Under the pieces are notes generated by a model, which was not told the origin of the DNA, did no database searches, and was given only the letters and a program-made list of their open reading frames with translations. Below, piece after piece: positions 2,849 through 15,738 of a DNA stretch of 64,000 nucleotides. The translations under genes were made by a program, and so were the position numbers. Within the stretch, counting starts at the first letter, position 1. The number at the start of each line of letters is the position of its first letter. The stretch spans positions 2,528,136 to 2,592,135 of the forward strand of contig JAWPMR010000001.1 in assembly GCA_033344815.1 (NCBI GenBank), given 5' to 3'. Source of the DNA: Paracoccaceae bacterium (lineage in GTDB: Bacteria; Pseudomonadota; Alphaproteobacteria; Rhodobacterales; Rhodobacteraceae).

Positions 2849-3630
2849 CGGATTTGCGTCGTTGCGCCCAACATCTGATCAGCCGCAGAGATTACTTTTG
2901 CATTCATTTCGTATCCTCGTTGGGCTTCGATCAGTTCGGTTATCTCGCGTACTGCATCAACTGAACTATCTTCCAAATAACCCTGACGCACTGTGCCAAG
3001 GCCATCCTCTCCCGGGGTCGAAACAAGTGATGGTCCGGACGCTTCCGTTTCAACAAACAGGTTGCTTCCCAGAGCCTCTAGGCCTTTTGAGTTCGCAAAT
3101 CCTGCCATGTTGAATTGACCCAACAATTGGGCTTCAGGAGCGTCTGCGAAATAGGCGTAAACTTCGCCCGAAGCATTGATCGAAACACTTCGAGCATCAT
3201 CCGGAATGACAATTTGCGGCTCGACGGGAAACCCATCGGACGTGACGATCAAACCTTCGCCCGTTCTTTTTAACCCCCCATCACGCGTATATGCGGATAG
3301 CCCAGAGGGAAGTGTGACCTCCAAATAGCCCTGGCCTTCGATTGCCAGGTCCAAATCACCGCCAGTGGCGCTGAGAGAGCCTTGTTGCAACTGAACGGAT
3401 ATTGCGGCGGGTCTAACACCGAGCCCCAACTGGACACCCGTTGGCATCACCGTGCCATCGGTGGCGCTAATTGTCCCGGGGCGGGTAAGCTGCTGATAAT
3501 GCAAGTCTGCAAACTCAGCCCGCCGGGCATTATATCCAGTAGTGCTCATGTTCGACAGGTTGTTCGAAATCGTTTCGACCCGCATTTGCTGGGCACTCAT
3601 TCCGGTAGCAGCGATTTTCAGGGCGCGCAT
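2845..3630 (-). CDS. flgG: flagellar distal rod protein FlgG
   Basis: 261 residues, the family length. The N-terminus MRALKIAATGM followed by an NNLSNMSTTGY motif is the rod/hook signature. GYLEVTLP lies centrally, and the C-terminus with SSVDAVREITELIEAQRGYE is the conserved helix that packs in the rod core. FlgG forms the distal rod through the P and L rings. It lies downstream of flgF and overlaps flgA by four bases. Confidence 0.96.
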   Translation of the reverse strand: MRALKIAATGMSAQQMRVETISNNLSNMSTTGYNARRAEFADLHYQQLTRPGTISATDGTVMPTGVQLGLGVRPAAISVQLQQGSLSATGGDLDLAIEGQGYLEVTLPSGLSAYTRDGGLKRTGEGLIVTSDGFPVEPQIVIPDDARSVSINASGEVYAYFADAPEAQLLGQFNMAGFANSKGLEALGSNLFVETEASGPSLVSTPGEDGLGTVRQGYLEDSSVDAVREITELIEAQRGYEMNAKVISAADQMLGATTQIR

Positions 3631-3652
3631 TTGGCACCTCCTTCGTTGGTGT

Positions 3653-4366
3653 TTACTGTGACAGTGCTTTCAATGCTTGACGCACACGTTGGTCTTCTGC
3701 GTCCAGAAAGCTGGCGCCCAATTCGTAGGCCCGTTGCACTTCAATCATGCGCGTGATCTGCGTGATGGCATCGACATTGGAATTCTCAACAAACCGCTGC
3801 AACACGCGCGCGTTTTCAGCTGGTTCGTACCCGTCATCAGCGCGGAACATGACGCCATCCTCGCGGATCATCTCCCGTGCGTTCAGTGGTTGCACAACGC
3901 CGATTTGTCCAATTGGATTCCCTTCACTGGAAATCGTCCCGTCCGATGAAACGGCAACATCCGCCGCACCCGGCGGAACAAATACTGGAGCACCGCCAGC
4001 ATCCAGAACGCGATATCCGTCAAACGTTACCAAGTCGCCCTCGGCGTTAGGTGAAAAAGCACCTGACCTTGTCAGTCTTTCCCCTGATGGTGTTTCCACC
4101 AGAAAAAACCCTTCCCCCTCGATGGCGAAGTCAAACGTACCACCGGTTTGGGTCAATGCACCTTGCTGAAAAGAAGTGTGGCGCACGTTGCCCTGCCCCA
4201 TCGACAGGCTTGATCCACCATCAACGGCCTTCACAAATTCAGAAAAGACCAATCCTTCTTGCCGATACCCGGAAGTGGCTGTATTTGCGATGTTATTTGC
4301 CACTATCCGCATTTCCCGCATCAGGCCTGCTTGCCGCGTTAGTGTGGTGTATCCAGTGTTTTCCAT
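3653..4366 (-). CDS. flgF: flagellar proximal rod protein FlgF
   Basis: 237 residues. The N-terminus has the rod motif NNIANTATSGYR and the C-terminus has NSNVDAITQITRMIEVQRAYE. It resembles FlgG but is shorter and begins MENTGYTTLTRQ, as expected for FlgF. A strong ribosome-binding site (GGAGG) lies seven bases before the ATG. FlgF is part of the proximal rod inside the periplasm. It is one base downstream of fliQ. Confidence 0.93.
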   Translation of the reverse strand: MENTGYTTLTRQAGLMREMRIVANNIANTATSGYRQEGLVFSEFVKAVDGGSSLSMGQGNVRHTSFQQGALTQTGGTFDFAIEGEGFFLVETPSGERLTRSGAFSPNAEGDLVTFDGYRVLDAGGAPVFVPPGAADVAVSSDGTISSEGNPIGQIGVVQPLNAREMIREDGVMFRADDGYEPAENARVLQRFVENSNVDAITQITRMIEVQRAYELGASFLDAEDQRVRQALKALSQ

Positions 4367-4367
4367 C

Positions 4368-4637
4368 TTAACCTCCAGTAATCAGTGGAATGATGCGGTT
4401 GTGGAAGAATGACACGAGCGTCTGCGTCATGAAGCCCATCGAAATCCAGAAAACGATAACAATGGCGGCAAGTTTCGGAACAAACGTTAAGGTCATCTCC
4501 TGTATTGAAGTCAGAGCCTGAACCAACCCGATGGACACCCCGGTGATGAGTGCGGCCGTCAAGATCGGCAGCGAAATAATCACAGAAATCCATAGACCCT
4601 GCCGCAGTGTGTCAAAGAAGATAACCTCGTCCAGCAT
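4368..4637 (-). CDS. fliQ: flagellar export apparatus protein FliQ
   Basis: 89 residues from the ATG at 4637, the exact family length. A longer in-frame reading extends upstream but runs through fliE in another frame, so it is rejected. Two membrane helices are visible (about 15-37 and 50-72), with the FliQ pattern SLPILTAALITGVSIGLVQA and the TLTFVPK loop. FliQ, with FliP and FliR, forms the gate of the flagellar type III secretion channel. Those partners are not in this window. Confidence 0.95.
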   Translation of the reverse strand: MLDEVIFFDTLRQGLWISVIISLPILTAALITGVSIGLVQALTSIQEMTLTFVPKLAAIVIVFWISMGFMTQTLVSFFHNRIIPLITGG

Positions 4638-4638
4638 G

Positions 4639-4965
4639 TTAAACGGGCATCCGTAAAATTTCCTGATATGCTTCGACAACTTTGTTACGCACTGACACAG
4701 CCGCTTCGACAGCCAACTCGGTCTGAGCCAGGGCTTGAACCAGCGCATGCGGGTCCGCATCGCCAATCATCGATTGCTTTGCGGTCTCTTCGCTTTGCGC
4801 AAGTGTTTCCGCAAAATCGAGCGCAGCGGTGCTTGCAGACTGTATGATGCTGGGTTCTTCTGGTGTTGGCTCAGTGGCCGGTCGAGCCTGCACATAATTG
4901 CTTATGGCCGTTGTCGCTCTCGCGTCGGCAAACTTTTGAATTGCTGAAACAGCTTTCATATCCAT
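4639..4965 (-). CDS. fliE: flagellar hook-basal body protein FliE
   Basis: 108 residues, the usual length. A hydrophilic N-terminus is followed by the FliE helices, with IGDADPHALVQALAQTELAVE and the terminal VRNKVVEAYQEILRMPV, which is nearly invariant in the family. FliE joins the MS ring to the proximal rod. The stop lies one base before the fliQ ATG. The distance to flgC (49 bases) is the largest gap in this operon. Confidence 0.95.
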   Translation of the reverse strand: MDMKAVSAIQKFADARATTAISNYVQARPATEPTPEEPSIIQSASTAALDFAETLAQSEETAKQSMIGDADPHALVQALAQTELAVEAAVSVRNKVVEAYQEILRMPV

Positions 4966-5014
4966 TCTGGATCTCCTTATCGTCTTACGGTAATTTTAAC
5001 CGTGTCGGTTGTGG

Positions 5015-5407
5015 TTATTTGCGTAGTAAGTCCATTAAACTACTGGACATCTTTCTCGTCTGTTCGAACACCTTCAGGTTCGCTTCGTAACTGCGCTGAG
5101 CTTCTCTGGCATCGCCAAGTTCAATCATCAGATTGACGTTCGAACCATCAAAATAGCCGGAGTCATCTGCCATGGGATGTGATGGATCATAGACCCGTTC
5201 CAATGTTGACTTGTCTAGACGCACTCGGCTTGTCTCGACTTCGGAAACACCGCTGGTGCCGTTATATGACGTTTCAAACGCAACGAGCTTCCGGCGATAA
5301 CCGGGTGTATCAGCATTTGAAATATTCTCCGAAAGATGGCGCAGACGTGTGGCTTGCGCCTTGAGGCCACTCGATGTCACGGAAAGAGCTTTTGCAAAAT
5401 CGTTCAT
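5015..5407 (-). CDS. flgC: flagellar proximal rod protein FlgC
   Basis: 130 residues, the family length. The N-terminal rod motif is NISNADTPGYRR and the C-terminal helix contains NVNLMIELGDAREAQRSYEANL. FlgC is built into the proximal rod with FlgB, FlgF and FliE. It lies 14 bases downstream of flgB, in the conserved order flgB-flgC-fliE. Confidence 0.95.
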   Translation of the reverse strand: MNDFAKALSVTSSGLKAQATRLRHLSENISNADTPGYRRKLVAFETSYNGTSGVSEVETSRVRLDKSTLERVYDPSHPMADDSGYFDGSNVNLMIELGDAREAQRSYEANLKVFEQTRKMSSSLMDLLRK

Positions 5408-5421
5408 GATACGTTCCCCAA

Positions 5422-5820
5422 TTAAGATCGTTTGAGCGTCGCGCGCAGAATGGTCAGTGACGATTTATAAATGGCCATCGCACGATCGTGCTGACGCTTT
5501 GCGCCAAGCGATTTCAGCATTTCATCCTCTAAAGAAACCGTATTGCCGTTTGGCGATGCTACGGATGATTCGTCTACTATTGGTGCTGCAATTGAACCAG
5601 ATGGTGCGCCATGCAAATGTTTGACACGCGTGGAGCGCTGACCTGATACGTCGCGGTTCGCCATATTGTCTTCGTAGGATTGTGCAAAAGGGGTTACGTC
5701 GCGCGCCTTATATTCAGGCGTGTCAGCATTTGCGACATTCTGCGCAGCAACAGCTTGCTTTTGTCCGGCATGCACCGCCATCGCATGAGAAATCTTGAAG
5801 ACTTCTAAATTTTCAAACAT
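5422..5820 (-). CDS. flgB: flagellar proximal rod protein FlgB
   Basis: 132 residues from the ATG at 5820, chosen because AAGGGAG lies nine bases upstream. A longer reading from 5850 adds ten unsupported residues. The protein begins MFENLEVFKISHAMA and has the rod motif NVANADTPEYKARDV. FlgB is the most proximal rod subunit. It is the first gene of the minus-strand basal-body operon and diverges from fliI. The 80-base interval between them must hold both promoters. Confidence 0.93.
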   Translation of the reverse strand: MFENLEVFKISHAMAVHAGQKQAVAAQNVANADTPEYKARDVTPFAQSYEDNMANRDVSGQRSTRVKHLHGAPSGSIAAPIVDESSVASPNGNTVSLEDEMLKSLGAKRQHDRAMAIYKSSLTILRATLKRS

Positions 5821-5901
5821 CAGGGCTTCTCCCTTGTGTGGTTTCATCAAGGCTTAACCCTGATTCCTTTAGAAAGAGTTTGCGACCACCAAAGGATTAC
5901 A

Positions 5902-7269
5902 ATGAGCCAGTCTCTAAACTTCGAAGGCGTGACCTCACAGATCAAAGATTTGGAACCTGTCCACGATGTTGGGCGCGTGACCCGAGTAGATGGAGGCGTG
6001 ATTCACGTCACCGGCCTTGCGGGCAAGGCACGTATTGGCGATCTGATTGTTGTCTATCGTCAAGGTACACCTTTGTCCGGCGAGGTATTGCAACTTGATG
6101 GCAATATACTGGTTTTACTTCCCGATCAGGCGCCAGATGGCGTTGCTCTGAACGATCGAGCGGCTTTGTTGGAAGCCCGTGGCATAGCGCCTGCTGACTC
6201 TTGGATCGGGCGGGTTGTTGATCCATTTGGCAAACCGTTGGATGGTTTGCCATTGCTCAAAGGCCCACAAGACAGACCGTTGAAACGAGCACCACCTGAT
6301 CCGGCTATGAGGCGCGGAATGGGAGATCGCCTGAATACTGGTATGGCTGGCATGAACACAATGTTGCCAGTCGTGCAGGGGCAACGAATCGGTCTTTTTG
6401 CGGGATCGGGTGTTGGGAAATCCAGCTTATTGGGACATTTGGCGCAGAATATGACGGCCGACGTTGTCGTTATCGCCATGATAGGTGAACGGGGCCGGGA
6501 ACTGCGACATTTCATTGAAAATGTGTTGGGGCCAAAAGGCTTGGAACGAGCGGTTGTCGTTTGTGCTACGTCGGATCAGTCTCCCTTGATTCGGCGACGC
6601 TGCGCATGGGCCGCAATGTCTGTTGCCGAACATTTCCGCGATCAGGGCCACTCGGTTCTGCTGTTGGCAGACTCTGTAACGCGGTTTGCCGAGGCGCATC
6701 GCGAAGTGGCGGTTGCGGCTGGTGAAGCTCCAGTACTTCGTGGCTACCCACCGTCCACTGCACATTTAATCATGTCACTTTGTGAACGCGCAGGCCCCGG
6801 CCAAGGTGTGCAGGGTGACATTACAGCTGTGTTCACCGTTCTTGTGGCCGGATCTGATATGGATGAGCCAATTGCTGATATCTTGCGCGGTGTTCTGGAT
6901 GGACATGTCGTATTGGATCGTTCGATTGCCGAACGCGGCAGATATCCTGCGATCGACGTGCTACGGTCGATTTCTCGCAGCCTACCAGCGGCGGCCACTG
7001 AGGAAGAAAATGTACTCCTGGCAAAGGCTCGAAATTTGTTAGCAGTTTATGACCGCAACGCAATGATGATTAGAGCTGGCCTGTACTCTACCGGAAGCGA
7101 CGCAGAGATTGACGCGGCAGTTCAAATCTGGCCCGAGCTGGACGCTTTTCTCGCGCGAGTCGAGACGCAAAGTGTGAGAAACAGCTTCACTCAACTAGAG
7201 TTGATACTCAGGAGAGTTCGTGGCACAGGGCCATCCAACGGGCATATCCGCGCCAACTCGACTGCCTGA
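5902..7269 (+). CDS. fliI: flagellum-specific ATPase FliI
   Basis: 455 residues from the ATG at 5902, with AAAGGA five bases upstream. A longer reading from 5836 would run into the flgB leader and is not preferred. The Walker A motif GSGVGKSS is at about residue 170. Walker B is LLLADSVTRFAEAHREV at about 253, with the typical FliI segment GYPPSTAHLIMSLCERAG further on. FliI is the hexameric ATPase that delivers and unfolds substrates at the flagellar export gate. No fliH or fliJ follows it. The next 1.2 kb is degenerate DNA. Confidence 0.95.
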   Translation: MSQSLNFEGVTSQIKDLEPVHDVGRVTRVDGGVIHVTGLAGKARIGDLIVVYRQGTPLSGEVLQLDGNILVLLPDQAPDGVALNDRAALLEARGIAPADSWIGRVVDPFGKPLDGLPLLKGPQDRPLKRAPPDPAMRRGMGDRLNTGMAGMNTMLPVVQGQRIGLFAGSGVGKSSLLGHLAQNMTADVVVIAMIGERGRELRHFIENVLGPKGLERAVVVCATSDQSPLIRRRCAWAAMSVAEHFRDQGHSVLLLADSVTRFAEAHREVAVAAGEAPVLRGYPPSTAHLIMSLCERAGPGQGVQGDITAVFTVLVAGSDMDEPIADILRGVLDGHVVLDRSIAERGRYPAIDVLRSISRSLPAAATEEENVLLAKARNLLAVYDRNAMMIRAGLYSTGSDAEIDAAVQIWPELDAFLARVETQSVRNSFTQLELILRRVRGTGPSNGHIRANSTA

Positions 7270-7421
7270 AGAAGTTCTGCTTCATTAAACCCATCTAGCC
7301 TCTTCCCTTTCACAATGGGACGTTCTGGGATTGTACGTCCTATCCCGCGATTTCAGTTTACGCGCGCGTCTTGCGCGGCGCTTCACGTTGCCCCAGCGTT
7401 CTGAGCAGTTTTGCTGATGTT

Positions 7422-7985
7422 TTATCTGTCCTCAGATGGATACGGCCTGACTTGCTTGTAATCGGGTTGCCAGCGCGGCAGTTTTCGACAGGCGTCGTTC
7501 CGGCTGTCGAACAGGTTCTCGCTCAGCAATCCCGCCTTTTGCGACAATGTTTGAGCGTTCAAAGCTGGAATTGTGCTGACACCAGCGATCACGCAGGTGT
7601 TCTCGCGGCAGCTTTCGTCGTGGGCCGCAAGAACTCGATGTGATGTGATGCACCAAACGTTCTCCCATGAAATCAAATGACAAATCAGCGCCGGGCTAAA
7701 GCGCGATTGATTCAGATGAGCGTATACGCCCCCGGCGCACACCCAATTTTTCCCTTGCGCACAATCAAGACAGCGTCTTAGACCTGACGATCATACGTTT
7801 CCACTTCAGCATCGCACGGATCCACCGATAACCAAACCGTCAGCGCCGCGGGCGATAGCCATCATCTCTAAACTGGCTTATGACTATCTGGCGGGCAAGC
7901 GCACCGGATAGTGTTGGAAACACAGACAACGAGATGGCAGATCGGGCGCGGCAAGCCATCATGATCCCGCATCGCCTCAAACCTT
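7422..7985 (-). pseudogene. decayed IS3-family transposase (OrfB) remnant
   Basis: Read on the minus strand, fragments in different frames line up in the order of an IS3-type OrfB. They are a CHLVVCVSNTIRC segment (near 7950), MMAIARGADG then a frameshift to FGYRWIRAMLKW (the family's FGYRRIHVMLRR, near 7840-7880), a short DFMGERL piece, SSFERSN, and finally LFDSRNDACRKLPRWQPDY followed by VRPYPS (the family's DYN.VRPHS ending). Several stops and frameshifts separate them and most of the catalytic core is lost, so it cannot be active. It is a different subgroup from the element at 1-885. The assignment rests on motif recognition, not alignment. Confidence 0.65.
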
Positions 7986-8508
7986 GTCTTTTGCCACGAA
8001 GTCGGCGTTTTCAACTCTTTCCCAGCACCCTTGAAAGGACAAAACTGTCGAGCATTTTACCCCCCACAAGGGTTCGGCCGCAGCGCGCTTTCATAGGTGA
8101 CAGCAAACAACTTGGCCGCTCCTGTAACCTCTAGACCGCCTTACTTCGAATTCAACTTGTGGGGCTCTCTTGGGCCAACGCCATAGTTGCAAACACGTCC
8201 GACATGGAAAGCCTTGAATCCGAATTCCTGCGATGCACCGCCTGAAAAGAACCATTTGAAAGATTTTGAGACACACCGCGCAACTAGGAAAGAGTATTTC
8301 TAAAACAACGTGCCCGGCGTCTGCCACGAATTCGTCTTTGTCGTTGGTCTCTCCACGAACGAAGAAAGACTGTCGCCCCACCACACGGCGTCAATTTAAG
8401 AAAGGGCAACCGGCCCAGGATAGCTCACAAACAAGACCTCAACACTTTTTAAAATCATCTGATTTTAACCAGAGTCTCGAAGGGTCCTGATACTTGCAAA
8501 ACCGAATA
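7986..8508. other. non-coding stretch with AT-rich perfect inverted repeat
   Basis: I recognise no gene here. The short readings on both strands have no family features and are not supported by ribosome-binding sites. At 8449-8468, TTAAAATCA and TGATTTTAA form a nine-base inverted repeat with a two-base spacer, 40 bases beyond the exosortase stop. It may terminate minus-strand transcription, although no T run follows. The stretch separates the IS remnant from the exosortase gene and may be further insertion debris. Confidence 0.4.
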
Positions 8509-10131
8509 CTATATCATTGCAATATTACCGGTAGCGACCGCTGCTCCAAAGATCAGAGCGTTCGCTGCGCTGTGGGATACAATCGCATCTGTGATATTAC
8601 CACGTCGCCACGCAACCCATGAAAACAAAAGCCCCGCGACGAAAGCCTCAGCCCAGCGGCCGTGCAAGGCAGCGAACAAAACAGCCGAACCAATCGCGGC
8701 GATTATGATCCACAAAGGCCCCGCACGCAGACGTAAGCGCTTTTCAAGGTAACCGCGAAAAAACACTTCTTCGATTATTGGGATGAGGACGATTGTGCCA
8801 AAGCCACGGGCAATGAACCACCCGACCAAAGCTGCACCTGCCAGTTCACCATAAGGTGGCGGGTCGTCTGTAGCTGCGACTGGGATCAAAATCCAGTAGG
8901 CGGCAATGAATGCCCCAACGCCAACTGCAACGGGATCCACGCGCCATGACAGGCGACGGTAGTAAGGCCAGACCATCATTAACACGGCGATCATCACTGC
9001 CACGCGGATCGGATATACTGCCGATGGTGTTTGGCTAAGCGTAGATGCAACGAGTGCGCTGAACATGAACACAATAAATGGTAAAATTTGCGCCACCAAG
9101 GGGTCTTGCCAAAACGGTGGGACAGCATCAGGCGTTTGTTTCTGGGTGTGAGTGGAGGATTTGCGCAGCGCGGGGACGGTTTGTGCCAATGCGATCACGC
9201 CAAGCGCCACCAATGTGAACATCATCCAACCTGCATGGCTGTGAAAACCGCCGACGGCGAGTTCGGGATTCCCCTCAAGCCCGATGAACAACAGGATTGA
9301 AATGCGCAGTATATTGAAAGCTACGGATGTCGCGATCCCAATCGGATAAAGCAGGAATGCCAGAGGGAAGCGCAGGTCGTTGCGAAACAGCCATAAGTAA
9401 AGTGTCACGAACAAAACGACGAGCGCAATGCCTTCGATACCGGAGCATACATTGGCGACCGAGATGAAAAAATCTCCGGCACCGATTACTTTTTTCACGG
9501 GGTCAACATAGAGTTCATAACCCACGCCGCTCATTAGCCAAGCAACTGCATTGAACGTCTGACTGGCGATCCAATCGATTGACCAGATGGGTTGCAGGCG
9601 TACAGATAGCCATGGGGCCGCAAGAGCAGCAAGCGCTGCGGGCACCAATGCCGTCCATTCACTGGCGACGTAATCGCGCCAAAGTGGGAGCGGTGCGATG
9701 CAAAGAGCTACACCCGCGAGGATCAGGCTCATGCCGATGACCCAAAGAGACAGGGCAGGAAGGACGCTCGACCCGCCAGTGGCGCCATTGAGAAGGGCGA
9801 GTGGGATCAGTGCGATCACAAAACCTGCAGCATTCATAATGAGAGGCCGGAGGCGTTTACCTGCTGTTTGAGTTAAGGTCGCTATCGGGGTGGGACGCAA
9901 CATAAACAACAAGACGGCCACGCCTAGCAGGCAGTAGATCGCGACGGTCGCCAGACTGGAACCTCGGCAAGCCCAGCTGGGCCAGTTCGCGAGACATTCA
10001 AAATCTATGAGATGTTTGAACAATGTACCAATGACCGTCAACTCAACCAACAACAATGCCGCAATCAGAACAAGCGGCAGAGCAGAAGACTTAATGTTGG
10101 TTTGCGAAGTATGTTCAGTTGTCATAGCCAT
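8509..10131 (-). CDS. exosortase E fused to CPBP-type protease (VPEID-CTERM system)
   Basis: 540 residues, highly hydrophobic. The N-terminal two thirds is an exosortase: Cys229 in NVCSGIEG, Arg276 in FNILRIS and His297/299 in GFHSHAGW make the Cys-Arg-His transpeptidase set, on several membrane helices. The C-terminal third (about 345-540) is a CPBP intramembrane protease of the CAAX/Abi type, with EEVFFR (454-459), FAALH (His490) and HSAAN (520-524). This fusion is the known exosortase E/protease architecture paired with VPEID-CTERM substrates. A substrate gene lies just upstream at 10226. The enzyme is expected to cut the substrate in the inner membrane and pass it on; the protease may remove the released helix, which is inference. 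A second in-frame ATG at 10125 is an alternative start. Confidence 0.9.
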   Translation of the reverse strand: MAMTTEHTSQTNIKSSALPLVLIAALLLVELTVIGTLFKHLIDFECLANWPSWACRGSSLATVAIYCLLGVAVLLFMLRPTPIATLTQTAGKRLRPLIMNAAGFVIALIPLALLNGATGGSSVLPALSLWVIGMSLILAGVALCIAPLPLWRDYVASEWTALVPAALAALAAPWLSVRLQPIWSIDWIASQTFNAVAWLMSGVGYELYVDPVKKVIGAGDFFISVANVCSGIEGIALVVLFVTLYLWLFRNDLRFPLAFLLYPIGIATSVAFNILRISILLFIGLEGNPELAVGGFHSHAGWMMFTLVALGVIALAQTVPALRKSSTHTQKQTPDAVPPFWQDPLVAQILPFIVFMFSALVASTLSQTPSAVYPIRVAVMIAVLMMVWPYYRRLSWRVDPVAVGVGAFIAAYWILIPVAATDDPPPYGELAGAALVGWFIARGFGTIVLIPIIEEVFFRGYLEKRLRLRAGPLWIIIAAIGSAVLFAALHGRWAEAFVAGLLFSWVAWRRGNITDAIVSHSAANALIFGAAVATGNIAMI

Positions 10132-10225: not shown

Positions 10226-10417
10226 TTACGCAGCGCGGCGGCTACGCTCCCAAACCAGCATCACAACAGCAGCAATGGCTGCAATTGCAGCGGTGCCTTC
10301 GAGGGCGCTGATTTCTGGCACTGCTGTACAGACTTGGCCGGGAGGGCAGCTCACAGCAGCCAATGCTGTGTCAGCCAAAACGACCAGTGCGGTCGCGGCA
10401 AAAGCGATTTTTTTCAT
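10226..10417 (-). CDS. VPEID-CTERM sorting-domain protein, minimal exosortase E substrate
   Basis: 63 residues from the ATG at 10417. The upstream extension in the same frame lacks sense as a signal peptide. An N-terminal Sec signal (about 1-20, ending DTALA) is followed by only about 12 residues (AVSCPPGQVCTA), then VPEIS, a hydrophobic helix (about 38-55) and the basic tail WERSRRAA. The VPEI motif, helix and Arg cluster are the VPEID-CTERM sorting signal, and the partner exosortase E is the next gene downstream. After both cleavages the mature product would be a peptide of roughly 12-16 residues with two cysteines. Confidence 0.85.
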   Translation of the reverse strand: MKKIAFAATALVVLADTALAAVSCPPGQVCTAVPEISALEGTAAIAAIAAVVMLVWERSRRAA

Positions 10418-10535: not shown

Positions 10536-13500
10536 CTAACAGATGCAGTCGTAATCTTCAAAGTTGATCCCAATGATAAACGGTTGCGCATTCGTGGATG
10601 TCGCAGGGTTAGGATCAAGGATCACGCCGAGGATATCACCAACACCAGCCTCAAACCCTTCGCCATTCGCTAGTGCTTGGCTAATGATGAAATCGACGTC
10701 ATCGATCTGGCCAATTTCCGGCGCAACGTCGAAAGTTACATCACTGCTGATACCATTGGTGAGTTCCCAAATTGCGAACTGAACTTCCCAACCCGTGAAA
10801 TTGCCGTCCACGGACCCCGTACCATCGTTTTCATAATCCTGGTTGAGGATATAGTTAATGAGGTCGAGGTTGTCGGCGGCGGTTTCACCATTGATGCCGA
10901 CTTTGTTGTTCTCAAACACCGAGGCTGCTTCGGCTTCGTTTGCGCCGAACAAATCTGCGGTGCTGATCGGGCTGTCATCCAAAAGACGCGCACCCGCGGC
11001 AGGATCGAACAGATCGAGGCAATAGGCCTGCTCAAAAACAACGCCTTCGAAACGGGCATCGCCACCTGCATCCGTGATGCGGATGTCATAGCCAAAATCA
11101 CCGAATGGTGCGCTTCCCGCAAAACCGTCCGCAATCTGGTAACTGACAACCGAGGAAGGCAGGCTTTCGCTCAGGCTGGCTACAGAATTCGCATCCCCCT
11201 TGAACGTCATTTCCACGTTTGCTGTGGCTGTACCGCCTTGGCCGTCATCCACCGTGTAGCTGATATTTTCGACCGCGCTTTCAGTGATATCCAGCGCTGC
11301 ATAAGCTGCTTCGCCATCAAACACCAACTGCCCACCGACAAGCGTGACAACCGTGCCGGCACCCGTCGTGACGGAATTGCCTTCACTGATCGCCTGACCG
11401 TCAACTTCGGTGATGCTCAGGATGTCGCCATCCGCATCAACAATGTTGCCAAGCCCGTCTGCGGTCCCGTCGTTGGCCAGAACGTCGACCGTTACTTCGT
11501 CGTCCGCGCAGGTGATGCCTGCGTCGTCCTGAGGCTCAGGCGTGTTGTTTTCAGCAACGATACCTGCATCCACGGTCAAGTTAACTTCACCGATGTCCAG
11601 CGTGATTGTATCCGTCCGGCCAGTCTGTTGGTTTGCGTCACTGTCCGTGACATCGGGTCCCGTGTCAGCCACGGTGAAGTCGAACGAGTCCACTTCCTCA
11701 AAGCCCACGGTGTAATCACCCGCCCTGAGACCATCGAACAGGTACATACCACCATTCGCTGTGCTTGTCGTACCCGCAACGTTTCCGTCCGCGTCAAACA
11801 GTGTGACTTCCACACCGTCAATGCCGACTTCACCGACATCCTGCTGACCATTTCCGTTGGCGTCGATGAAAACCTTGTCGCCAAGAGCTGCTGTGCCGGG
11901 ATCTTCGACACCCGCGTCATTGTCAGACGAGGTTTCTCCGATTTCCAAAGTTATGCCAAGGATAACGCCGTTATCATCAACATCGCTGTCATTGGTGTCG
12001 TCGCCATTCCCATCAGGATCGTTTTGCGCGACGAAGGTTTTGCCTTCTGCATCTGCAGCGAACAAAACGCCGTAGGTGCCAGCCAACAGCCCAGTAAACG
12101 CATAATTGCCGCTAGAGTCAGTTGTTGTGGTCACAGGATTGCCGTTCACGATGACCGGGTTTCCGGTGGCATCTAGCAACGTGACAGTTGCATTGGCGAT
12201 TCCGGGCTCATTGTTGTCCACGTCATCGAAATTTTCATCGCAGAAGTAACGACCTTCGAGCGCCGCAGTGCCGGGATCTTCAACACCCGCGTCATTGTCT
12301 GGTGTGTCCGCGCCCGCATTTACAACAATGCCTGTGATCTCCGACATTCCATTGTTCAGGTCGATCGCATCGCTGTCGATTGTGTCATCACCACCAACAT
12401 TTGCTTCAACCAGAGCCGCGCCAGATACGGTGTCGGTAAATTTGACCCCATAGGTTCCCGCTGGCAGATCAGCGAAAGAGTAGTTGCCATCTGCATCGGT
12501 TGTGGTCGTAACCGGCGTGCCACCGTCCAGAACCGGATCGCCGTTTTCATCCAACAATGCAACGTCCACACCAGCAATGGCATTGCTTGCGTCATTGTCC
12601 AGCCCGTCACGGTTCGTATCAAAAAAGTAGCGCCCCGAAAGAGAGCCCAAAGGTTCAACGCCCGGCACATAGCAAAGATCATCAATCGCGCCAGAGCCGT
12701 TCAGCTGAACATCCATGCTCACCACGTTGTCCACATCCATGACCACCTGGCCCACACCACCATTTACAAGGTTCGGAATGTCGAAGGTTTCGGTGGATCC
12801 ATCCGCCAAAGTAAGAGTGATTGTGCCGCCTTCTTCCGTGTCGATGACCTTGAGGTCAAAAACAGAGGACGGCGTGTCGAAGTCAAATGTAATCTTGCCG
12901 CCGATTGCATCGTCTGGGTCAGAGCTGTCACCGTCCTCAGAAACGATCAGCACATTGCCCAATTGCGCAACTTGTGTTTCCAAATCGCCGTCACCGCCTG
13001 TTGGGTTTTGGCTGTCGAAGATCATCGCGTCGCCGGATCCGCCCATGGCAGAGATCGTGACCCCGTCGATCTGTGTTCCAAGAATATCGCCTGCGCTGAA
13101 TTCGTCAAAGCCGAGTTTAATGGCATCCGGATCATCGCAAACTTCGAACTTAACCTGCTCGAACTTGATCGCATCGATGCGGACGAATTCGCCATCGTCA
13201 CGCCAGGCGCGGATTTCGACAGTGTCGCCTTCAGCAATTTCAAGCCCTTGAAGCGTGACTTCAGAGAACACGCCGTTGTCGGAGCCACCGCCATCGGTGT
13301 TTTGGTCAAGCCGGATTGTTTGCTGCAGTTCACCGTTCACATAAACCATCAGCTTTGAATTGCCGTCGCACTCATCCTGCGCACATATCGTCATGTTGTA
13401 GACGCCGTCAGTTCCACCAAAGTCTGTAGAAATCTTTCCGTCATGGCCAGACAGTTTTACAAGTTCGCCACCGGACGCCTGATCGCCGTGCACAACTTTA

Positions 13501-14042
13501 AAGCCGTTGAGGTCCCAGGATTCGGCCTCGACCGTGTAAGTGCAGGTGTCGTCGTTGAATTCCCAAGGATCATCTGCCGGTTTCTCGCCTGCATCCAAAC
13601 ATTTGAAATCAACCCAATTGCCGCTCACATTGCACTGGGAACCCACTGTCAACTCGGCACCCTCAGGTGGGACAGTATAGTGTCCGCCGGTGTAGAAGGT
13701 GACGTAATCGACGCTGGAGCCTTCCTGCTCAATCTCGATCATCACATAGCTGTTGCCGTGCTGGTCGGTTACCCAGTGATAGCTTTCGGCATAAATCTGA
13801 TGGCCATTGCCCAATTCCTGGCCGTCATCCCCAAGGATGGAGGCCGATTGGCCATAACCGTCGTTCGAATTCTCGTTGTGCCTGGTATCGCCGCTCAAAA
13901 AGCTGTCGTTGTCTGTGACCTCAACGCAGACTGTGGCGCCACCCGGCATGGTGAAAGACTCACCCTTATTCACGCGGCTGCCAACACCCAAATCGGTAAC
14001 CGCAAAAGCCGTAAACTCAAAGGTTTGCATATTATTTGTCAT
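10536..14042 (-). CDS. large multidomain surface/secreted protein with SdrD-B-like repeats and a candidate thioester domain
   Basis: 1168 residues, acidic and rich in Asp, Gly and Thr. In order I see: an N-terminal region of unknown type; a carbohydrate-binding-like beta domain (about 165-300, beginning VEAESWDLNG); a second beta domain (about 305-460); three SdrD-B-like repeats (about 465-590, 593-718, 719-835) with GRYFFDTNRDG, GRYFCDENFDD and GDKVFIDANGNG; a cadherin/Ig-like domain (about 845-945) with DVLANDG; and a C-terminal domain with YCLD (Cys1008) and VQFAIW (Gln1088). These two motifs match the pair that makes the internal Cys-Gln bond in thioester adhesins. No Sec signal, membrane helix or VPEID tail is visible, so the export route is unclear. 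GGAAG lies eight bases before the ATG. Adhesin function is inferred. Confidence 0.8.
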   Translation of the reverse strand: MTNNMQTFEFTAFAVTDLGVGSRVNKGESFTMPGGATVCVEVTDNDSFLSGDTRHNENSNDGYGQSASILGDDGQELGNGHQIYAESYHWVTDQHGNSYVMIEIEQEGSSVDYVTFYTGGHYTVPPEGAELTVGSQCNVSGNWVDFKCLDAGEKPADDPWEFNDDTCTYTVEAESWDLNGFKVVHGDQASGGELVKLSGHDGKISTDFGGTDGVYNMTICAQDECDGNSKLMVYVNGELQQTIRLDQNTDGGGSDNGVFSEVTLQGLEIAEGDTVEIRAWRDDGEFVRIDAIKFEQVKFEVCDDPDAIKLGFDEFSAGDILGTQIDGVTISAMGGSGDAMIFDSQNPTGGDGDLETQVAQLGNVLIVSEDGDSSDPDDAIGGKITFDFDTPSSVFDLKVIDTEEGGTITLTLADGSTETFDIPNLVNGGVGQVVMDVDNVVSMDVQLNGSGAIDDLCYVPGVEPLGSLSGRYFFDTNRDGLDNDASNAIAGVDVALLDENGDPVLDGGTPVTTTTDADGNYSFADLPAGTYGVKFTDTVSGAALVEANVGGDDTIDSDAIDLNNGMSEITGIVVNAGADTPDNDAGVEDPGTAALEGRYFCDENFDDVDNNEPGIANATVTLLDATGNPVIVNGNPVTTTTDSSGNYAFTGLLAGTYGVLFAADAEGKTFVAQNDPDGNGDDTNDSDVDDNGVILGITLEIGETSSDNDAGVEDPGTAALGDKVFIDANGNGQQDVGEVGIDGVEVTLFDADGNVAGTTSTANGGMYLFDGLRAGDYTVGFEEVDSFDFTVADTGPDVTDSDANQQTGRTDTITLDIGEVNLTVDAGIVAENNTPEPQDDAGITCADDEVTVDVLANDGTADGLGNIVDADGDILSITEVDGQAISEGNSVTTGAGTVVTLVGGQLVFDGEAAYAALDITESAVENISYTVDDGQGGTATANVEMTFKGDANSVASLSESLPSSVVSYQIADGFAGSAPFGDFGYDIRITDAGGDARFEGVVFEQAYCLDLFDPAAGARLLDDSPISTADLFGANEAEAASVFENNKVGINGETAADNLDLINYILNQDYENDGTGSVDGNFTGWEVQFAIWELTNGISSDVTFDVAPEIGQIDDVDFIISQALANGEGFEAGVGDILGVILDPNPATSTNAQPFIIGINFEDYDCIC

Positions 14043-15738
14043 CTTAAAACTTCCAATTCATTGTGAGCAACAAAGGGGAAACTTCGATGAAACCAGCCGT
14101 ACGTCTTGCACTATTGCGGTACCTTGTCGGTACAAAAAAATCAGATGACGATTCTCCGCAGGAAAAAGAGTGACAAAAACACTTTAATTCTCAAATCGAC
14201 GACTTAATTGCCGTCTTACCGAATACCACACCAAAAATTTTCGCGATAATGCTGAACTGACTAATTTATCCCCTGAATTACCTGTCTCTTCCTACAAAGG
14301 AAAATTACACTCAAAATTTACCGAATGTTAACGAAAACTTGAATTTTTCGTTAATTTTGCAACTCGCTCCGTGAAATTCCCCCCAAATAACCCCCTATGG
14401 TTGTTTATCTGATGTGAATTCAATTTTTGGGTGGCGCTCTGTTGCCGCCTCTCCCTTCAAGCGAGTAATTACGCGTTCATCAAGGTTTCTTACAGAATCA
14501 ATGCGTGAACAGTTTAAGCCTTCAGTTCAAATGCACTGCAAAACTTGTGCGGCGAGTACATTTATCCGTTTTTTACTTCGTATTTCAGGAATCCCTTGAA
14601 CAAGCTACCAATGCGACCTTCGCCAGCGACCACTCCTTGATTCGAGAAATTTTCCGAGACAAGTTCGACGAGTCCTCACATTGAGCAAGAAAGTATCTGT
14701 TGGGCTCATCACGCTTGAAGAGGATTACAGATCCGCCGCCTTACCCTCATCCGACGCTACCGGTCAATCACTCCCATGAGGCGATTTCGCTTAGAATACC
14801 CGGTGGGTGTCTGAAATCTGAAACTCTTCAGTTGTGAGAAATCTTTCAAGGCATTTCAAACCGTTTTTTTTCAAAAATAATGTATTTGAAAACTGGTTTT
14901 GACTGGAAGGTTACCTATTTCAAAAAACATCGCGCGTATTGCAGATTCACTTGCCTGACACGGTACGAAGAAGGACTGGACATGGTCGCTGTAGCCTCAA
15001 GAACCGCACGAGACGAAGACTTCGGAACGGTTTGACGCCCCTTCTCATAGCACGCTTGATGGGCGTTGACGGTTTGAGCAAAGCCTACAATTGAAAAGCG
15101 AGTAAGAAAGAGTTGTTAGATGCGTCTAATTATTGGCAGAGACTTATGCTCAGTCGTCTGGCCGAAGTGCAAAATTTGATATGATGCATGCGAATCGAGA
15201 CGAAACGTCCGTAACTTTTCTAGTAGTCTCGTGTGAACTGTTCGCTGTTAAAATGACTTAGTGCTTGGTACAAATTCCAAAAGTTAATATTGTTAGATCA
15301 GGGCAAGAGTTTCGTTTTACATGCCACTAGGATCCACTTTGTGTACGTTTTCTTTTGACGTTACAATTTTTAGTATTTGTCAACGATTCTTGACCGCAAG
15401 TATAACTTGGTTCTGTGTTGTCAGTGATCCAACATATGGCGGATAAACTTGGGTTTCCGGTTTTACACCGCTCATCGACATGAACGCCAGTTCGCCAGCG
15501 CAAGTACTATAGGTGGCATTAGTGTTTATGACAAACAGCCGCAATGCATGATGAAACAAGTGTTTAGGGGATCTATTGAGGATTTAATTCTTGAGAAGGT
15601 AATACCCTTCAGAAAGTACTAGACAGTAGCGTAACTGTTGTTAGAACCAGTCTGGCAATCGCGGCTTAGCGCAGTCTTGCACACCGGTAGAAATTTCCGA
15701 CACGTTTAATCAAGACAAATTACTGTGGTGGCAACTAA
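14043..15738. other. 1.7 kb AT-rich non-coding region
   Basis: I see no convincing gene. The base composition is clearly richer in A and T than the neighbours. TTAACGAAAA (14328-14337) and TTTTCGTTAA (14345-14354) form a perfect ten-base inverted repeat around a seven-base spacer, about 290 bases upstream of the large surface-protein gene. It is followed by TTTTG on the plus strand and could be an operator or an AT-rich hairpin. A 28-codon reading at 14087-14173 with AAGGGG upstream is possible but unsupported. The rest holds only short readings without family features and looks like inserted or eroded DNA. Confidence 0.5.

Follow-up and report, generated by a model that had tools for sequence, protein, structure and literature searches.

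A putative thioester domain at the C-terminus of an adhesin-like protein encoded beside exosortase E in a marine Rhodobacteraceae bacterium

Do Gram-negative bacteria possess adhesins that carry an internal thioester bond? A 2015 survey placed thioester domains (TEDs) exclusively in Gram-positive bacteria (PMC4450167, eLife 2015, cited throughout for the available part of its text). The question is raised by a stretch of 64,000 nucleotides from a Paracoccaceae bacterium (contig JAWPMR010000001.1), here called the window. It encodes a 1168-residue protein whose C-terminal region was proposed in a preliminary description to be a thioester domain. The host looks to be a marine Roseobacter-type bacterium and the product a large, secreted-looking adhesin. 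The gene and its parts are as follows, in window coordinates.

10536..14042, minus strand: adhesin-like ORF of 1168 amino acids, acidic and fibrillar, with a putative C-terminal TED (ORF listing and Pfam).
11553..12650, minus strand: three SdrD_B-like repeats forming a stalk, limits approximate (Pfam SdrD_B).
11205..11549, minus strand: Big_9 bacterial Ig domain, residues 832-946 (Pfam, 31 bits against a cut-off of 23.6, E 4.9e-7).
10539..11198, minus strand: thioester-like domain, residues about 949-1168 (TED match, found in 17/17 members of alignment A3, and a 24-row alignment).
11019..11021, minus strand: Cys1008 in AYCLD, the proposed thioester Cys, kept in 22/24 members.
10779..10781, minus strand: Gln1088 in the helix motif VQFAIW, the Gln of the preliminary description, a probable structural residue beside the bond (24/24 members; role from PMC4450167).
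10584..10586, minus strand: Gln1153 in AQPFII, the proposed thioester-forming Gln (24/24 members).
10539..10547, minus strand: Cys1166-Ile-Cys1168 (CxC) at the C-terminus (24-row alignment).

The middle of the protein is readily classified. Pfam reports SdrD_B in three stretches (E 8.2e-61, the best at residues 719-828), and a PDB profile search matched solved SdrD structures (E 6.1e-17) and UafA, the matches spanning residues 465-830. Repeats of the SdrD_B and Ig types commonly build stalks. No Pfam family reached its cut-off in residues 1-460; a carbohydrate-binding identity guessed by eye for residues 160-300 drew no support from searches. The protein is strongly acidic, with a pI of 4.05 and 222 Asp plus Glu against 31 Lys plus Arg. 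The maximal mean hydropathy over 15 residues is 0.97 in the first 60 residues and 1.17 in the last 40, and judged by hydropathy and the sequence ends, no signal peptide, LPXTG motif or CTERM tail was seen. The C-terminus reads FEDYDCIC and has no hydrophobic tail. Among 24 members of the family the first Cys of this CxC is present in all and the second in 23; some members carry a short extra tail after it.

The C-terminal domain probably belongs to or lies near the Pfam TED family (PF08341, gathering cut-off 22 bits). In a search with this profile, which the preliminary description had proposed as a check, the window protein scored 16.2-19.9 bits over several searches, always under the cut-off. 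The full-length protein matched at residues 1035-1099 with 16.2 bits (E 0.015), and the isolated domain scored about 19.3-19.4 bits (E 0.0015), TED being the only Pfam family at E ≤10. A search of the organism's own genome returned the adhesin as its single TED match, at 19.9 bits. The relatives are more informative. All 17 rows of a 17-row alignment, the window protein included, match TED at E ≤1 (best 3.9e-7), and it is the sole Pfam family common to them all at that threshold; their mean column identity is 41%. The TED profile matched at E ≤0.01 in 12 of 295 genomes sampled from the bacterium's own family, the matches being nine adhesin-family proteins and three others; the four genomes with matches above the cut-off (31.4, 29.9, 27.2 and 24.2 bits) all owe them to adhesin relatives. 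Because these relatives match TED, the domain is placed in this family though the window protein is itself sub-threshold.

The alignment of the window protein with the profile is partial. It opens at profile position 19, residue 1035, and thus past Cys1008. In 11 other translated TED proteins the match starts at the [YW]C pair, or at most two residues before it, and extends beyond Q..[IL]W. The Pfam TED matches stop short of Gln1153. PDB profile searches with 3, 5 and 17 sequences retrieved no solved TED. Of 385 genomes sampled across the class, only the one containing the window and another from its family had the adhesin domain, and one scan of viral contigs turned up no relative.

Which residues would form the bond can be approached through the motifs of class I TEDs. 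In these the bond-forming Cys lies in a [YFL]C-Phi-hydrophilic motif and the Gln in a weak PhiQ-hydrophilic-PhiPhi motif; a TQxxPhiW helix motif is separate from the bond Gln, its Gln and Trp are both non-essential, and in the TEDs studied its Gln hydrogen-bonds the Cys backbone (PMC4450167). The available part of a later paper (PMC6194298, Protein Science 2018) repeats these motifs, states that the structures solved earlier were all of class I and gives Cys71-Gln266 as the pair of a class II TED. The residues named in the preliminary description are present as it gave them: A-Y-C1008-L-D, and then E-V-Q1088-F-A-I-W1092-E-L-T-N-G, with Gln1088 80 residues after Cys1008. AYCLD fits the Cys motif, and VQFAIW fits the helix motif with Val or Ile at the Thr position in the adhesin family. 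A second invariant Gln, Gln1153, is absent from that description. Its surroundings, AQPFI, fit the Gln motif approximately, residue 1154 being Pro where the published motif is hydrophilic.

Conservation was assessed in 24 members, the window protein and 23 relatives. Two loci are left out of this alignment, L010 (the same record as L014, though included in alignments A1 and A2) and L051 (same contig as L011), and three more (L056, L057 and L059) were kept out as they do not match the adhesin outside the TED; loci re-finding known members were not counted twice. Gln1153, Gln1088 and Trp1092 are invariant (24/24), and Cys1008 is kept in 22, being replaced by Tyr in L013 and by Gly in L074. The preliminary description had named homologs lacking either of its two residues as evidence against it; the Cys is missing from two of the 24, and neither Gln from any. 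Cys1008 and Gln1153 are 145 residues apart, and the 22 members that have the Cys show corresponding spacings of 123-146, L013 and L074 being omitted; a second, shorter value in L058 and L068, due to another [YF]C in the domain, was set aside. The solved pairs Cys109-Gln261, Cys94-Gln247 and Cys138-Gln267 have spacings of 152, 153 and 129 (PMC4450167). In shuffled versions of the adhesin, [YFL]C-hydrophobic-polar followed 60-120 residues on by Q..[IVL]W arose in 18 of 20,000 cases, and in 2 of 20,000 when a PhiQxPhiPhi motif was added (first gap 55-120). Conservation among the family members is stronger evidence than these shuffles.

The candidate bond is therefore assigned to Cys1008-Gln1153, because the helix Gln is non-essential in known TEDs and Gln1153 agrees in motif, spacing and conservation. 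The assignment is drawn from these features of the sequence and not from a structure model. Two AlphaFold runs with five-sequence alignments gave pLDDT values of 43.4 and 37.0, too low for reading a Cys-Gln distance, and a fold search with the first model returned noise (best E 4.4). In that model (pLDDT 43.4) strands are predicted to be followed by helices and again by strands, with Gln1153 right before the last strand; this order may resemble the description of TEDs in PMC4450167, and carries almost no weight. Of the preliminary description, the thioester-domain reading is probably right, with relatives that match PF08341 and a Cys in the [YFL]C motif; the window protein is under the profile's cut-off, and the Gln chosen was very probably the wrong one.

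These features suggest, with a fair degree of probability, that the protein is an exported adhesin with an N-terminal region, an SdrD_B/Ig stalk and a class I-like C-terminal TED in which a Cys1008-Gln1153 thioester reacts with a target. What the data show directly is the sequence, its conservation, the match to the TED family and the cassette of genes. By analogy with known TEDs, from which fold, bond and reaction are taken, Cys1008 would attack the side chain of Gln1153 in the folded domain, releasing ammonia and leaving the thioester, and Gln1088 and Trp1092 would pack close to Cys1008. On docking, an amine (or hydroxyl) of the target would attack the thioester, and the target would become covalently joined to Gln1153. 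Since no signal peptide was seen, our guess for the export route is type I secretion; the genome has one PrtD-type type I exporter above the cut-off (3928547-3930178), far from the adhesin locus. With the TED at the C-terminus, the protein can be read in two ways: if that end points outward, the TED would be a sticky tip, and if it points towards the cell, a self-anchor.

The two members that replace the Cys bear on the alternatives. L013 and L074 retain both Gln residues and the Trp. L074 has lost the equivalent of Cys1008 and the last Cys of the CxC, while L013 keeps both CxC cysteines. Their lack of the Cys, together with the sub-threshold score of the window protein, would agree with a descendant of TEDs whose ligand binding is non-covalent and whose Cys is structural or being lost. 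We consider this unlikely, as the Cys stands in the correct motif in 22 of 24 members and a Gln follows it at a distance like that of class I TEDs. A disulfide between Cys1008 and Cys1166 or Cys1168, in place of a thioester, would account for the CxC being at least as conserved as Cys1008 and for the joint loss in L074. L013 speaks against it, having no Cys1008 and both CxC cysteines, and a disulfide gives no reason for the TED helix motif or for the invariance of Gln1153; it is accordingly rated as quite improbable.

Two genes lie downstream of the adhesin gene on the same strand.

10226..10417, minus strand: small VPEID-CTERM-like protein, 63 amino acids from ATG (TIGR04161, 25.2 bits, E 1.2e-5, cut-off 33).
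8509..10131, minus strand: exosortase E fused to a CPBP (Rce1-like) protease (TIGR04162, 384.6 bits, cut-off 150).

The 63-residue protein has a signal peptide-like start, the motif CPPGQVC and a VPEIS tail. Pfam finds Exosortase_EpsH and an Rce1-like domain in the product of 8509..10131. A terminator scan placed no minus-strand site between the adhesin and exosortase genes (over the whole stretch it gave 6 sites against a shuffle mean of 8.5, and so no excess), and no Rfam family reached its gathering threshold near the adhesin gene. Upstream of it, positions 14067-15738 contain no ORF of at least 120 amino acids and no Rfam match. Elsewhere in the window there is a serC leader RNA (RF00517, 49777-49828, 70.6 bits). 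In the window the cassette is set among flagellar genes, and its neighbours differ elsewhere; several neighbour genes at other loci look exopolysaccharide-like by eye.

This arrangement is conserved. Of 17 adhesin loci examined, 14 have a small neighbouring protein whose tail bears VPEI[SD], the pattern finding none in L013, L020 and L053. Among 99 relative genomes the adhesin domain occurs in 8, exosortase E in 13 and both in 7. In the 295 family genomes, exosortase E is found in 35 (34 above the cut-off) and the TED adhesin, sought with the 17-row profile, in 17, of which 13 also have exosortase E (Fisher p 1.7e-10). The two matches are on the same strand, 437-520 bases apart, in 11 of these 13; in G286 they are on opposite strands, 402 bases apart, and in G204 on two contigs. 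The adhesin-bearing genomes G019, G121, G192 and G351 gave no exosortase E match. Conversely, 22 of the 35 exosortase E genomes are without the adhesin, and six exosortase-E-only loci examined contained no adhesin relative. Exosortase E at L045-L050 has no adjoining adhesin relative; at L045 and L048 it is near an ORF that by eye resembles RNA polymerase beta-prime. The adhesin has no VPEID-CTERM tail, and is a cassette partner of exosortase E/VPEID-CTERM, not a recognisable substrate.

The conserved cassette, and the lack of any visible anchor in the adhesin, would agree with self-anchoring, in which the TED reacts with the VPEID peptide processed by exosortase E, or with another amine of the cell's own surface, and so takes the role that LPXTG has in Gram-positive bacteria. 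The genomes of both Cys-less members (G352 and G121) gave no exosortase E match. Among the five members without exosortase E two have lost the Cys, against none of the 19 whose genomes have it (one-sided p 0.036, a weak value given related rows and small numbers). No other observation links the Cys to the exosortase, and this one is a lead only. Three of the five retain the Cys, exosortase E is found also without the adhesin, and no Lys or Cys ahead of the VPEI motif is conserved among the small proteins. Self-anchoring is rated as very unlikely. A two-part covalent display, in which exosortase E would place the tiny VPEID peptide at the surface and the adhesin TED couple to it with the N-terminal domains outward, is likewise a doubtful proposal with little probability. 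The pairing of Cys1008 with Gln1088 put forward in the preliminary description can be set aside as scarcely credible: Gln1088 is invariant (24/24), but the helix-motif Gln is non-essential and hydrogen-bonds the Cys backbone, the bond Gln is in a separate motif, and a spacing of 80 misfits the three solved pairs (129, 152 and 153; PMC4450167).

If the thioester assigned to Cys1008-Gln1153 is real, marine Gram-negative bacteria would join those capable of covalent adhesion, through a proteobacterial family whose TED is C-terminal and whose exosortase partner is conserved, and the exosortase E/VPEID-CTERM system would gain a partner protein. If self-anchoring were true, a thioester domain would serve as a cell-surface anchor. 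In the available portions of later papers, the TED family is extended, with Enterococcus faecalis proteins among the examples (PMC9210967), and isopeptide domains, not TEDs, are reported in Gram-negative adhesins (PMC12617251); no mention of a Gram-negative TED was found in those portions or in that of PMC6194298. Titles and the beginnings of abstracts, a partial coverage, yielded no literature dealing with TED adhesins of Gram-negative bacteria or with the VPEID system, and the term VPEID-CTERM was not found in the literature so covered.

With the exosortase E/VPEID-CTERM system (TIGR04162, TIGR04161) the locus shares the exosortase-protease fusion and an adjoining small VPEID-like protein; the adhesin differs in having no VPEID tail. 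Pfam recognises other proteobacterial TEDs, and PF08341 matched at E ≤0.001 in 2 of 398 Pseudomonadota genomes. Three other Rhodobacteraceae genomes encode proteins with a signal-like start, a TED and a VPLPA tail (L056, L057 and L059, in G295, G336 and G238). These resemble the adhesin as proteobacterial TEDs with YC or WC and Q..(I/L)W, and read WC/YC, FQ.A[IL]W and a later SQ[DS]LV. They differ in being short, with a signal-like start, a hydrophobic tail of their own and no match to the adhesin outside the TED; hhalign of the adhesin domain with them was weak (probability 10.4%). They make up a second kind of proteobacterial TED and appear to be anchored by an exosortase. Another Pseudomonadota family provides L082 (G731, 3272-9427, minus strand), a 2052-residue open frame. 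A signal-like segment near its N-terminus is followed closely by a strong TED match (56.6 bits, E 1e-14), and its C-terminal tail is both hydrophobic and basic. It too has a proteobacterial TED with YC/WC and Q..(I/L)W motifs, but differs from the adhesin in the N-terminal position of that domain, the signal-like start and its own hydrophobic tail, and to judge from its sequence may represent a Gram-negative protein with the polarity of TIE proteins.

Like the adhesin, TIE proteins (thioester, isopeptide, ester) have a stalk of repeats with a TED at one of its ends. Their TED is N-terminal, after a Sec signal, and they end in LPXTG, whereas in the adhesin the polarity is reversed and neither signal is seen; its stalk is of SdrD_B and Big_9, set against the isopeptide- and ester-bond stalks of TIE proteins. 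Class I TEDs (PF08341; Gram-positive adhesins such as SfbI) are N-terminal and Gram-positive, and the adhesin's is C-terminal and proteobacterial. It differs from them further in its sub-cut-off score, Val or Ile for Thr, the Pro in the Gln motif and the terminal CxC. The two are alike in the [YFL]C and Q..(I/V)W motifs, the later Gln motif and the Pfam TED match, with a Cys-Gln spacing of 129-153 in the three solved class I domains and of 123-146 in the adhesin family.
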